Shown piece by piece: positions 5,384 through 9,268 of a stretch of 39,631 nucleotides of DNA. How positions within the stretch are numbered: position 1 is the stretch's first letter; every line of letters begins with the position of its first letter. Origin of the DNA: Fibrobacter sp. (GTDB lineage Bacteria > Fibrobacterota > Fibrobacteria > Fibrobacterales > Fibrobacteraceae); NCBI GenBank assembly GCA_017965445.1, contig JAGCPZ010000074.1, forward strand, positions 1 to 39,631, in the 5' to 3' direction. A program made the position numbers and the translations under genes. Under the pieces are notes generated by a model, which made no database searches, was not told where the DNA came from, and saw only the letters and a list, made by a program, of their open reading frames with translations.

Positions 5384-5411
5384 GGCGTTTGCCACCCCGG
5401 CTTTTTCAACT

Positions 5412-5487
5412 TGTCACCCCGTGCTCCGTCACGGGGCCAGTTTTTTTACGGAACAACTGATGCCGGCACAGTGGCCGGCATGACAGC
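5412..5487 (+). repeat. REP-like element, copy 1 (also a terminator for batB)
   Basis: This 76-base unit begins TGTCA and ends TGACAGC, so its ends are inverted. It contains a 7-bp hairpin CCCCGTG/CACGGGG (5417-5423 and 5430-5436) followed by T7 at 5441-5447, then a second hairpin TGCCGGC/GCCGGCA (5461-5467, 5474-5480). A second copy lies 102 bases downstream. The first hairpin plus T-run could terminate batB transcription. Confidence 0.8.
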
Positions 5488-5513
5488 ACCACATGTCGCC
5501 CCGCTTTCAACAC

Positions 5514-5591
5514 TGTCACCCCGTGCTCCGTCACGGGGTCAGTTTTTTTATGCAGAACAACCGATGCCGGCACTGAGGCTGGCATGACAGC
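5514..5591 (+). repeat. REP-like element, copy 2
   Basis: This is a second, slightly diverged copy of the element at 5412. It is 78 bases long, with a two-base insertion after the T-run and about half a dozen substitutions. Both hairpins are kept, although the second stem now contains a G-T pair. The rest of the gap 5384-5747 shows only the likely promoter and ribosome site of the next gene. Confidence 0.8.
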
Positions 5592-5747
5592 GAATGCGTT
5601 TTTCGACTTGGGAGGGCGGTTCGGGCTAAAAAAACACAAATTTGTATCAAATTGTGTAAAAGTTCGTTTGTGATATTCCTCACATTTGGAAAAATATTGT
5701 AAGTTTGTCGTATGTTTCAGAAAACATCAATATAAGGAATATGGACC

Positions 5748-7283
5748 GTGAAGAATAAATTTCATGCAATTTCGATGTGTTCACTGATGGCTGCATTTGC
5801 TACTTCATCATGGGCAGCGTCGGCCTCCAATTGCCCGAAGGCTACTGCCGCAGAACCAGGTTGGTCAGTAGATGAAGAGACAGGCGAATGCTACTATGAT
5901 ATTCAGGATGGCGAGCAGACTCCAACGATACCTTCTAGCTTGAAATCGTTCAAGTTGCGCTATAAGGGTGATGTTGATATTGATTATGCTACAGTTCATT
6001 TGGATAACCCTAAAGGTACGCAATACACTTATAGTGTGTCTGGGTCTGCTCAATTAGAGGAAGGCGGTTATTTGATTATTAGCAATAGGCTGAACTTAGC
6101 CGCTTATGCGGGTTCATTAGCCGGGCTCCTTTCTATGGTGGGTCTTCAGACTGCATATACTGAAGACGAAATGTCCTCGTGCTATGTAAAAAATTGCAAT
6201 ATTGCAAAGGAAACGGGTTTTAATGCTTTGACGGTCGAATTTGGAGAAGGTATTGAAGGCATTGGGCAAAGCTTTGAACTTACTGTTACGCAGGAACAGT
6301 TTGACTTTACATCCTTGGAAGTTTATCATACGAAAGGCGTGACTCCAAGCACTGTTCAGGAAATTGCTACAAAGGCGGGTTCTTTCCTCCCGTCAGATTT
6401 CCCGCTGGATAAAATTAAAGCTGCTATAAATGCCGGTTACGAAAGTTTGGCGTTGCTTCATGGTAATGGTGAAAATGATAAGTTGACTTCTATCCCGGCT
6501 GACATCGATGTCGATTATGTGTATCTTGACCGTACGTTCACCGCCAATGGCAAAGAAGCCGCTTCGACCATTGCTTTGCCGTTCGGTATTGCTACAGACA
6601 ACATTGAAGGCGCTCTTGAAATTCTTAAGTTCAGCCGCGTGGCCGATAATACTTTGTATATGAAAGTGGTCTATTGCTCGACCGATAACGATGCCGGCTA
6701 TTGCCCTGCGAAAAACGGTAAAGACAACGGTTCGCTTGAAGCCTATAAGCCGTACCTCGTTCGTTTGAATAGTGGTGCTTCGACTCTCGAATTTTCTGGT
6801 GCTACGACGCTTGTAAAAACCCCGGCAAAGACAGAGTTTGATGCAAGCAATGGCGATTGGGCATTCCGTGGTATGTTTGAAAAGAAAACGTGGAATGAGA
6901 ATGACCCTGAATTGACGGGCTGCAATGGCGGTTGCGCTTACGGCTATGCCGCCGAAGGGGAAAATCTGGGCAAGTTCGTCCGTGTCGGCGAAGGCGCTTC
7001 CATTGTCCCATTCCGCGGTTATCTGCTCAATACAAGTGCATCGATGCTTGCTCCGGCAAACGCTTCTTACGTCTTGCGTCCGACGGTTAATACTCCTGAT
7101 GAGTTGGATATTGCTGTCGAAGGCGATAATAACCAGACGACCGTTATCGGCAAGTTCAACACCCGTACCGGCGAAATGCGCATGAACAGCATGAAACACA
7201 CTTACGACCTCAAGGGTCGCCGTGTGAATGGCACGAACAATGCCCGTGGCGCTTACTACGGCAAGAAAGTGCTCATGAAGTAA
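5748..7283 (+). CDS. Secreted protein with T9SS-like C-terminal sorting tail
   Basis: This 511-residue protein has an N-terminal signal peptide (hydrophobic CSLMAAFATSSWA, cleavage expected near residues 24-26). The body has no domain I recognise. It is beta-rich looking, with paired cysteines such as VVYCSTDNDAGYC and TGCNGGC. The C-terminal end reads TYDLKGRRVNG followed by ARGAYYGKKVLMK, which matches the general 'DxxGRxv ... GxYy' pattern of type IX secretion tails. This points to export to the cell surface by inference. The start is GTG at 5748, with AAGGAAT at 5733-5739 as ribosome site. The ATG at 5741 reaches a stop after five codons. It probably shares a transcript with the small peptide gene 41 bases downstream. 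Confidence 0.7.
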   Translation: MKNKFHAISMCSLMAAFATSSWAASASNCPKATAAEPGWSVDEETGECYYDIQDGEQTPTIPSSLKSFKLRYKGDVDIDYATVHLDNPKGTQYTYSVSGSAQLEEGGYLIISNRLNLAAYAGSLAGLLSMVGLQTAYTEDEMSSCYVKNCNIAKETGFNALTVEFGEGIEGIGQSFELTVTQEQFDFTSLEVYHTKGVTPSTVQEIATKAGSFLPSDFPLDKIKAAINAGYESLALLHGNGENDKLTSIPADIDVDYVYLDRTFTANGKEAASTIALPFGIATDNIEGALEILKFSRVADNTLYMKVVYCSTDNDAGYCPAKNGKDNGSLEAYKPYLVRLNSGASTLEFSGATTLVKTPAKTEFDASNGDWAFRGMFEKKTWNENDPELTGCNGGCAYGYAAEGENLGKFVRVGEGASIVPFRGYLLNTSASMLAPANASYVLRPTVNTPDELDIAVEGDNNQTTVIGKFNTRTGEMRMNSMKHTYDLKGRRVNGTNNARGAYYGKKVLMK

Positions 7284-7324
7284 TAGGTCAAAAAGAATTT
7301 AACAATCAAAAAAAGGAAACACCA

Positions 7325-7480
7325 ATGAAAAAAGAATACAAGGCCCCAGAAATGGACGTTATCGAAATGGAATATAAGCCGGATTGCCTTCTGTGCGAAA
7401 GTGGTTGCGATGATGTGCCCGTGAATAACAGCGATCCCTTCAATCCAAATCTTCCGTCAACTACCGGCCCACTTGGCTAA
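7325..7480 (+). CDS. 51-residue Cys-containing peptide
   Basis: This short reading frame begins ATG at 7325 behind a strong ribosome site (AAAGGAAA about 5-12 bases upstream) and ends at TAA 7480, followed by a strong terminator. The product starts MKKEYKAPEMDVIEMEYKPD, then has LLCESGC and an acidic, Pro/Asn-rich end finishing in GPLG. Three cysteines (residues 21, 24, 28) are spaced C-x2-C-x3-C. There is no signal peptide. The 'MKKxYxxPxxxVxE' opening resembles short peptides I recall from Bacteroidota and Fibrobacter genomes, which are suspected to be exported or modified. Function is unknown; it could be a peptide precursor or a metal-binding microprotein. Confidence 0.75.
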   Translation: MKKEYKAPEMDVIEMEYKPDCLLCESGCDDVPVNNSDPFNPNLPSTTGPLG

Positions 7481-7507
7481 TCTTTAACTGAATCATCTAT
7501 TGCGACT

Positions 7508-7651
7508 AAAAAAGACCCGGTGCGTCCGCGCCGGGCCTTTTTCATAGGAGGGATTGAAGAAGCCTTCCTGGTGGTTCTGTGTCTCGACTGGAGAACCGTG
7601 CGGAAGCCGGAGGTGACTTACTTCGCGTGTTGTGACCACTAGGAAGGCTCA
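7508..7651 (-). ncRNA. Candidate structured small RNA with anti-Shine-Dalgarno-like loop
   Basis: Read on the minus strand, a TATATT box (7663-7658) would start transcription near 7651. The RNA then opens with a 14-bp stem (7649-7636 with 7574-7561, one G-U pair) enclosing two hairpins: a 9-bp stem with one bulge (7629-7621 with 7606-7597) and a 6-bp stem (7597-7592 with 7578-7573). Stem ends compete for a few junction bases. The first hairpin's 14-base loop shows UCACCUCC (7616-7609), identical to the anti-Shine-Dalgarno tail of 16S rRNA. A linker with CCCUCCU (7552-7546) follows, then a GC-rich hairpin (7535-7516) and T6 (7513-7508). Promoter, fold and terminator together support an RNA gene. 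No matching known RNA family was recognised, and the -35 is weak. Confidence 0.5.
7516..7542. terminator. Bidirectional Rho-independent terminator
   Basis: An 8-bp stem (7516-7523 with 7528-7535, loop GTCC, one T-G pair) is followed by five T residues at 7538-7542 on the plus strand. It is preceded by six A residues at 7508-7513, which form a T-run on the minus strand. It can end the small peptide transcript from the left and the candidate small RNA from the right. Confidence 0.85.
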
Positions 7652-7713
7652 AGTATTAATATACGTCATAATTCGGAATGTGGAACGATAAACCTTAAAA
7701 TCATTGGTCTAGG

Positions 7714-7750
7714 TTGGAATGTTTCATTTTAGTTTACTATTTTCTAATGG
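7714..7750 (+). promoter_or_regulatory. Candidate leaderless promoter of the M16-like gene
   Basis: TTGGAA at 7714-7719, an 18-base spacer and TATTTT at 7738-7743 form a plausible sigma-70-type promoter. The start codon at 7751 follows after exactly 7 bases, with no ribosome site. The segment between the small RNA region and this promoter shows nothing else. Confidence 0.5.
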
Positions 7751-9268
7751 ATGAAAACGAAATATGTGATTTCTGCCGCCTTCTGTGCGGCCTTGGTGGT
7801 TTTGACATCGTGTTCGATGATGCCGAAAAAGTCGTCCCATGTCAAGCATACACCGGACTTTTTCCCTGCCGAGGCGGAAAGTTCCAGTTCGCTGGTAGAG
7901 ACTGCCGCCTTGCCGGAACATTACAGCAAGATTGAATTCCCGGAATACAAGTACGTGGCGCCGTATCCGAAGGATTTCCGTGTGCAGATTGCGGACGGGA
8001 TTACCGGCTACATTGTGAGCGACACGACGCTTCCGCTTGTGGATTTTTCCGTCTATTTCGAAGAGAGCAACTTGCCTTTGGTGCTCAAGGACGAGGCGGC
8101 CTTTGAAATGGTCGGTTCCATGATTCGTCGTGGCGGCGGCGGCGGGATTACGGCTCATGCGCTTGAAGATTCGCTGGAATTCGTGAGTTCGTCAATTTCG
8201 ACGAGCGTGGGCACGTATCTTTCGGCGTTCGACATCAACTGCCTTTCGATGTACTTCCCGGAGATGCTCGAACTGGCACGGAAGGTGCTTACGGATCCGT
8301 CGTTCGACAAGACTCAGCTCGAAATCGTGAAGGCGAACTTCGTGACGTCTTACGAACGCCGTCACGAGACGCCGGCCAAGGTGCTTTCGGCGCTCAAGTC
8401 GAAGGTGAATTATGCGCCGAACCCGAGGCTTTGGAATGCGAACGCGACAGAGTATAAGGCGGTGACTGCCGCCGACGTAAAGCGCCTCGCGAAGGGCGTG
8501 TTCTCGTCGAAACGTATCGTTTTTGCGCTTGCGGGTAATGTGAACCGCGATTCTGCCGTGACGATGCTCAAGAATTTCTTCGCGGGCTGGAAGGTCGAGC
8601 CTTCGGAGGATGGAAAGTCTGCGCCGGTTCCGCTCTCGTTTGCCCGCAAGCCCGGCGTGTATGTGGTCGATAAGGATATCACGCAGGCGAACATCACCAT
8701 GAACCAGCCGTTCGTCAAGCGCCCGCACCCCGATTACTACCCGACTGCGGTTGCCAGTTTCATCTTGGGCGGCGGTAGCTTCAGTTCCAGGCTCATGAAC
8801 CGCGTCCGTAGCGACGAGGGCCTTGCGTATAGCGTGTATAGCACGGTCGGCAACGACTACCGCGATACGGCGATGACGACGATTGCCCTCCAGACCAAAG
8901 TCGAGACGGTCGGTTTTGCCATGAAGCTCATTTTCGAGGAAGTGGAAAAGCTTGCGAAAGACGGGCCTACGGCGGAGGAACTGTCGCAGGCGAAAAAGTC
9001 CCTGGTCGAGAGTTTGCCTAGCCTGTTCGATTCTCCGTCCTCGACGGCGACTATCTTTGCGAAGGGCGAACTTTTGGGCAAGTCGGACAACCATTACCTG
9101 GATTATGTGACGCAAATCAATGCGGTGACGGCGGAACAGGTCAAGGCGATGATAGCTAAGTATTTTGATAAGGACAAGATGACGATTTCGATTGTCGGCC
9201 CTGTCTCCATGTTCGATTCCTTGAAACCGTTTACCGTGATTCCTTTGGACAGCCTGGAGTTCAGGTAA
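7751..9268 (+). CDS. M16-fold peptidase-like lipoprotein lacking the zinc motif
   Basis: This 505-residue protein has a lipoprotein signal peptide ending VLTSC (lipid-modified Cys21). It has the two-domain M16 (pitrilysin/insulinase) layout. The N-terminal domain should carry HxxEH, but the equivalent stretch reads FEMVGSMIRRGGG (about 118-130), so zinc-dependent proteolysis is unlikely. The C-terminal M16 domain is well preserved, with ILGGGSFSSRLMNRVRSDEG and LAYSVYS (about 336-362). It resembles the non-catalytic partner subunits of M16 heterodimers, which pair with an active subunit; none is adjacent. The location is probably the periplasmic face of the outer membrane. The ATG at 7751 is chosen for the signal peptide and its position 7 bases after a TATTTT box. 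Confidence 0.75.
   Translation: MKTKYVISAAFCAALVVLTSCSMMPKKSSHVKHTPDFFPAEAESSSSLVETAALPEHYSKIEFPEYKYVAPYPKDFRVQIADGITGYIVSDTTLPLVDFSVYFEESNLPLVLKDEAAFEMVGSMIRRGGGGGITAHALEDSLEFVSSSISTSVGTYLSAFDINCLSMYFPEMLELARKVLTDPSFDKTQLEIVKANFVTSYERRHETPAKVLSALKSKVNYAPNPRLWNANATEYKAVTAADVKRLAKGVFSSKRIVFALAGNVNRDSAVTMLKNFFAGWKVEPSEDGKSAPVPLSFARKPGVYVVDKDITQANITMNQPFVKRPHPDYYPTAVASFILGGGSFSSRLMNRVRSDEGLAYSVYSTVGNDYRDTAMTTIALQTKVETVGFAMKLIFEEVEKLAKDGPTAEELSQAKKSLVESLPSLFDSPSSTATIFAKGELLGKSDNHYLDYVTQINAVTAEQVKAMIAKYFDKDKMTISIVGPVSMFDSLKPFTVIPLDSLEFR

Follow-up and report, generated by a model that had tools for sequence, protein, structure and literature searches.

What is encoded in the stretch of DNA that precedes an M16 peptidase-like gene in Fibrobacter, which of its strands is the functional one, and by which means could its product act? 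The copy that raised these questions lies on the minus strand at positions 7650-7508 of a 39,631-nt segment of contig JAGCPZ010000074.1 (Fibrobacter sp., assembly GCA_017965445.1) that was analyzed in its entirety and is referred to here as the window; it is the single copy in its own genome, whose assembly is 72% complete. The original prediction, made from the letters of this window, had proposed a minus-strand small-RNA gene with a promoter-like box, a three-way fold and a terminator, and had suggested that the transcript pairs with the ribosome sites of many mRNAs. The first of these two proposals is supported by conservation in 64 genomes and by relocated copies, and from the sequence data we consider it very likely that the locus is a minus-strand RNA gene. 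It likely represents a new trans-acting small RNA, produced from a single-copy gene of Fibrobacter. This fiber-digesting gut genus, a main cellulose degrader of the rumen, would thereby gain an RNA family and a covariance model with which to find it.

Architecture, fold and distribution of the RNA

All parts named in the original prediction, that is, the TATATT box, the stem, the two hairpins, the linker with CCCUCCU and the GC-rich terminator with its T6 run, were found in the sequence (Table 1). In the predicted fold of the window RNA, the closing stem P1 has 14 pairs arranged around one A.C mismatch, and it encloses the two hairpins P2 and P3. An apical loop carrying UCACCUCC had also been proposed; this sequence is present at 7616-7609 (minus strand) within P2, but its UC is drawn as paired, leaving ACCUCC as the predicted loop.

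Table 1. Positions and characteristics of the RNA, its upstream elements and its divergent neighbor in the window.
Feature	Position	Strand	Remarks
Upstream element	7707..7719	-	Fixed position relative to TATATT in 64/64 genomes (63 distinct segments)
Predicted -10 box TATATT	7658..7663	-	Found in 64/64 genomes
RNA core, three-way junction	7561..7650	-	Match of covariance model R1; predicted 5' end at about 7651
Closing stem P1, 5' arm	7635..7649	-	Predicted fold; partner 7575-7561
Hairpin P2	7600..7626	-	Predicted fold; apical loop ACCUCC at 7614-7609
Hairpin P3 (UCUC CAGUC GAGA)	7582..7594	-	Predicted fold
Closing stem P1, 3' arm	7561..7575	-	Predicted fold, lineage conservation
Single-stranded linker	7541..7560	-	Carries CCCUCCU at 7552-7546, predicted unpaired
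Terminator hairpin with T6	7508..7542	-	GC-rich (7537-7508); a convergent plus-strand gene could use the same hairpin
M16 peptidase-like gene (Pfam PF05193)	7751..9268	+	Divergent neighbor of the RNA

The minus strand of the window element folds with -55.3 kcal/mol (z -4.61), and none of 200 shuffled sequences folded equally well. The plus strand folds well too (z -4.14); hence, folding alone does not choose the strand. At minimum energy, all 48 distinct cores are predicted to adopt one topology, a closing stem with 10 or more pairs around two hairpins and no more, which 20 of 960 shuffled whole cores reach. When the arms of P1 were kept and the inside was shuffled, two hairpins were obtained in 436 of 960 sequences. 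P1 alone therefore supplies much of the topology, and the remaining case for the fold is made by covariation. On the opposite strand, 35 of the 48 cores give the same topology, with a z of -4.02 versus -4.75 on the minus strand; for 34 of the 48 cores, the minus strand has the lower value.

A MAFFT alignment of 19 members, which was not fitted to the structure, has 96.6% of its cells paired, compared with 37.5-48.1% when the partners are slid. Five pairs are changed on both sides, a number reached by one of 500 shuffles; further pair types are no more numerous than in the shuffles (190/500). Such both-side changes occur in P1, the stem in which compensatory changes had been proposed as a check of the fold; pair 7 of P1 is C-G in 22 cores and U-A in 26. 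P3 exists in the variants GUCUC/GAGAC, GACUC/GAGUC and, once, AUCUC/GAGAU. The helices are the most conserved parts of the RNA family-wide, and in the 18-genome lineage that includes the window, 14 of 14 columns of the 5' arm of P1 (7649-7636) are invariant.

The covariance search of related Fibrobacter genomes that the original prediction had recommended revealed a family. A model built from 24 members (R1) detects the RNA in 64 of the 80 Fibrobacter genomes at one place each (genome G036 has two rows, one per strand of a single place), and in none of the 31 genomes from other genera of the family that were among the 111 genomes searched. A further model, R2, which represents the three-way structure in full, recovers the same 64 genomes among 167 of the phylum, with no match in the 87 genomes outside Fibrobacter. 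A DNA pattern searched over 84,980 named species returned 42 stretches, 41 of them titled Fibrobacter and one titled Fibrobacterales bacterium. A DNA search matched 21 of the 80 genus genomes, 18 near full length (the genome of the window included) and three by short stretches; the 17 other near-full-length relatives have 86-98% identity. Sixteen of the 80 genomes, seven of which are at least 90% complete, contain no credible copy; looser filters gave matches in two of these 16, the best with an E value of 0.39. As judged from these comparisons, the element is conserved in Fibrobacter beyond the window, and to a greater extent than expected by chance.

An early BLAST match in genome G034 (L020), one of the three short matches of the DNA search, was rejected as it is a look-alike terminator only. 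The copy-less genomes include G033, G035, G031 and G040, and at the seven copy-less loci that were read (L049, L050, L052, L054, L055, L057, L060) a different gene, glutamyl-tRNA-synthetase-like by eye, lies upstream of the M16 gene. The most diverged member (L124, genome G023) is the only copy found on the same strand as the M16 gene.

With its 14-bp inverted arms and its occurrence at several chromosomal positions, the locus could be taken for a mobile or repeated DNA element. This explanation is strongly disfavored, to the point that we give it almost no weight: the element occupies one place per genome in all 64 carriers, plasmids and viral contigs were searched with no match, and the promoter elements move along with the RNA.

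The claim that the RNA matches no known family has held up as well. Rfam finds nothing at gathering scores in the whole window, and at E 1 the loci of 19 of the 64 relatives, which represent several lineages, are likewise without a match. A local search of the window with E values up to 10 produced six weak matches (RF02278, STnc310, Thr leader, RsaE, OmrA-B, ar14), all of them far below the cut-off and rejected as its identity. RF02278 is a toxic small RNA of Betaproteobacteria whose toxicity comes from anti-Shine-Dalgarno pairing; it gives the best Rfam match on the minus strand (7565-7507), which scores 24.6 bits where the cut-off is 50. What is alike is a pyrimidine-rich, CCUCC-containing stretch with a GC-rich terminator behind it, but the match spans only the linker and the terminator, so that the three-way junction lies outside. 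RsaE/RoxS (RF01820) scores 18.8 bits against a gathering score of 79. In RsaE/RoxS-type sRNAs, unpaired C-rich motifs act against ribosome sites; their fold, however, is a different one, and in the Fibrobacter family an unpaired C-rich motif is fixed in one lineage only.

No Rfam 6S family appears among the matches of the window up to E 10 or among those of the 19 relatives up to E 1. The likeness to 6S RNA (RF00013 and related) is one of topology only: in both, there are a closing stem and an inner stem, the 5' side is single-stranded, and the 3' side bears a small hairpin. The Fibrobacter RNA is much shorter. GibS of Bacteroides is described as an intergenic 145-nt sRNA, conserved in a single genus, with a conserved promoter of its own that pairs near the start codons of its targets, and it is characterized as relatively unfolded with a 5' seed (PMC7366714). 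Both RNAs are intergenic, genus-level in their conservation and accompanied by a promoter of their own, a predicted one in Fibrobacter, whereas the 5' end of the Fibrobacter RNA is predicted to be locked in a stem. In the open-license literature, no described Fibrobacter small RNA was found, and searches on anti-Shine-Dalgarno toxic RNAs and on 6S in Fibrobacteres returned nothing on the RNA described here.

Chromosomal position, strand and 3' ends

The RNA is divergent from and upstream of the M16 gene in 51 of the 64 genomes, upstream on the same strand in one, and elsewhere in 12; in the 52 genomes in which the M16 gene adjoins, the gap measures 26-246 bp. Ahead of ten of the 12 relocated copies there is a bioB-like gene, and the two such genes that were tested encode Radical SAM and BATS domains; of the remaining two copies, one follows a carbamoyltransferase gene and the other is close to a gene for an ABC transporter. 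The relocated copies keep the box, an upstream palindrome (see the last section), the fold and the U-tract. Since box and palindrome are kept at 12 other places, the RNA gene appears to be autonomous rather than part of its M16 neighbor; relocation together with box, palindrome and U-tract is, among the sequence features considered, what argues most strongly for the minus strand as a gene of its own. The prevailing divergent arrangement and the short gap could also be understood if the M16 promoter were controlled in cis, either by the DNA as such or by transcription that starts at the RNA promoter. We regard such a cis element as improbable, given that the 12 copies away from the M16 gene retain promoter and fold.

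The 3' ends of the RNAs, which were set by rule, are of two kinds. In 30 of the 64 genomes, T6-T8 follows directly after the closing stem, corresponding to an RNA of 85-110 nt; with at least six T directly behind it, P1 itself is terminator-like in these genomes. The other 34, among them the window, have a linker and then a separate terminator, and their RNA measures 125-148 nt. The gene would be transcribed as a free-standing minus-strand RNA of about 85-148 nt that folds into a rigid three-way junction, whose closing stem may protect both RNA ends and, in about half of the carriers, may also terminate transcription. The RNA looks non-coding: 36 of the 64 sequences have no closed reading frame with ATG, GTG or TTG as start, and the frames of the others have at most 34 codons and unlike lengths. 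A promoter, a terminator and the lack of attachment to any one neighbor, the attributes of a trans-acting intergenic sRNA, can all be read from its sequence.

A role of the plus strand, as the structured 3' end or terminator region of an upstream gene, has to be weighed against this assignment. The plus strand folds well, as described above; among the 15 distinct cores of the window lineage, 14 have an A.C pair in P1, which would read U.G in the opposite orientation; and of the six lineage members whose separate terminator was tested, four, not including the window itself, show the better terminator fold on the plus strand. The terminator probably serves both directions. Conversely, the U.G pairs present in P1 on the minus strand of other lineages would become A.C on the plus strand. 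Over the whole of P1, G-U and A-C cells (minus strand) number 18 and 19, and their asymmetry was rejected as a strand indicator, the lineages pointing in opposite ways. The positions of TATATT, palindrome and U-tract suit transcription of the minus strand, and all three accompany the RNA to the 12 other places with other neighbors; we hold a plus-strand function to be quite improbable.

Several features of the neighborhood were noted in passing. The start of the M16 gene (window 7714-7757) looks nearly leaderless, with TTGGAA, about 18 bp, TATTTT and then ATG a few bases on; a BLAST search of this gene against E. coli gave no match. Between a BatA/VWA-like gene and the RNA (window 5400-7500), there is an extra block consisting of a 511-codon frame without a Pfam match and a short frame; several relatives (e.g., L042, L051, L056) have the RNA close to where the VWA gene ends. 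The short frame (7325-7480) comprises about 51 codons with a C-rich middle and a conserved-looking MKKEYKAPEMDVIEM start, stops just before the shared terminator, and could encode a small secreted or modified peptide.

C-rich stretches and possible modes of action

The proposed pairing with ribosome sites was prompted by UCACCUCC, which was likened to the anti-Shine-Dalgarno tail of 16S rRNA. As a conserved mimic of this tail, UCACCUCC was rejected, for it occurs in 2 of the 64 genomes. Unpaired CCUCC was found in 26 of the 64, namely in all 18 genomes of the window lineage (twice in each) and in eight others. The CCUCC loop expected in homologues is hence a consistent feature of the lineage, but 38 of the 64 family members lack unpaired CCUCC, and ribosome-site pairing is not the conserved core of the family. 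Counted whether paired or unpaired, CCUCC is present in 40 genomes versus 15.8 predicted by shuffles, although related genomes are not independent. Within the 18-genome lineage, 19 of the 20 linker columns are invariant, versus 6 of 28 columns just upstream of the -10 box, which argues that the single-stranded linker is under constraint there. On these sequence patterns, pairing with ribosome sites is plausible for the window lineage.

A Shine-Dalgarno motif was found ahead of 84 of the 211 Fibrobacter genes called, versus a background of 9%; the loci overlap in gene content and are not independent. With the same caller, 15 of 31 E. coli genes have one. The genes of the window alone yield 7 of 27 (4 of 27 with a stricter motif), a small sample that disagrees with the larger count. 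For Fibrobacteres, Shine-Dalgarno sequences are described as less obvious but detectable (PMC3155529). When six of the 18 lineage genomes were searched for the complement of the linker with at most one mismatch, sites besides the RNA itself numbered 0-2 per genome versus 1-5 for a reversed control, that is, there was no excess, and these searches found no conserved target. One candidate, a gene resembling that of an FAD protein by eye, has the ribosome site AUAGGAAGGAUUG beside its start in G000 and G054. Orthologues at E 1e-100 (L191-L200) are present in 10 of the 18 lineage genomes, with AGGAAGGAU kept in 10 of 10 and AUAGGAAGGAU in 9 of 10, and all seven copies from six genomes outside the lineage are without AGGAAGGAU. 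It was rejected as a target since it mismatches the linker at a fixed central position, and a good Shine-Dalgarno site would look like AGGAAGGAU anyway. Neither Hfq (controls 5/14) nor CsrA (controls 3/14) was detected in any of 31 genus genomes; given the result for Hfq, the RNA is probably Hfq-independent.

We see about an even chance that the complete explanation applies, i.e., that an independent small RNA with a three-way junction blocks translation in the window lineage through its C-rich stretches. The ACCUCC loop and the CCCUCCU linker would then pair with the Shine-Dalgarno sites of target mRNAs and prevent their translation, and the RNA would work without Hfq. The main competing possibility, which we judge to be the less probable of the two though a serious one, is a protein-binding structural RNA in which the helices are the active part and hold or titrate a protein, the CCUCC stretches being an accident of one lineage. 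Candidate partners are RNA polymerase (as for 6S RNA), a ribosome factor or a genus-specific regulator. Such a function would agree with the family-wide conservation of P1 and P3 and with loops that differ between lineages, but the single-stranded C-rich sequence is clearly constrained in the window lineage. The Rfam 6S model finds nothing in all 80 genus genomes, so that a 6S-like role could be vacant; this argument is weak since the same model matched only 4 of 14 control genomes, and a 6S RNA of Bacteroides has been seen experimentally (PMC7366714). Moreover, with its 85-148 nt, the RNA is without the long bubble hairpin of 6S RNA and has no Rfam match. For control of translation through the C-rich arms, the family offers a natural experiment, in which a single scaffold carries arms that one lineage has fixed and most other lineages lack; Hfq-free translation control by such an RNA is thereby directly testable.

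A palindrome upstream of the promoter-like box

The TATATT box stands 7 nt before the core in 61 of the 64 genomes, and the position of a -35 hexamer is weak, with at most 1.24 bits per base. The 63 distinct upstream segments, aligned on TATATT, share a TTCCAA half-site whose TCCAA is present at 61-63 of 63 per base, followed after one free base by a second half that reads TTGGA in most segments and is of the T-G-G or T-A-G type in the window lineage. In the window, an intact half-site TTCCAA (7719-7714) and a spacer (7713) precede a decayed second half, CTAGAC (7712-7707), which differs from TTGGAA in three of six bases. The center of the palindrome TTCCAA-N-TTGGAA is located 50 bp upstream of the first base of the box, which puts it at about -62 relative to the predicted start; class I activators usually bind there.

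Occurrences of the palindrome were counted in samples of 600 kb from genome G044 and 200 kb from genome G045. In G044, the perfect palindrome is present three times versus 0.04 expected, and ten control palindromes score 0 each; in the sample from G045, which belongs to the window lineage, no perfect palindrome was found. One of the three is that of the RNA itself. The other two (L211:11292 and L243:13081, contig C1) lie upstream of genes with FIST and GGDEF domains, one also with HD, so that the palindrome before the RNA is also seen before cyclic-di-GMP signaling genes; a TATATT-like box follows there at least 50 bp downstream of the palindrome, versus 43 bp for the RNA. These two genes of one genome suggest a shared regulator and possibly a small regulon made up of the RNA and FIST-GGDEF genes. 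A regulator that binds TTCCAA-N-TTGGAA at about -62 would switch on the RNA, and perhaps also the FIST-GGDEF genes. A more far-reaching proposal, which we consider rather unlikely as a whole, is that of a genus-wide self-terminating RNA under an activator common to FIST-GGDEF cyclic-di-GMP sensors, which would act on a protein or on the ribosome without an Hfq-like chaperone and would carry lineage-specific C-rich arms on a fixed scaffold.

Two further observations concern copies of the bioB lineage. In the promoters L113, L114, L115 and L120, the start of TATATT is overlapped, in the manner of an operator, by an inverted repeat of 9-10 bp (TACCACTTTA..TAAAGTGGTA); in L123 and L100 it was not seen. 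About 170 bp downstream of the RNA in L115, a perfect palindrome is positioned 29 bp before a TATATT box, a shorter distance than that of the RNA, and the gene behind it is small, unrelated and antitoxin-like by eye.
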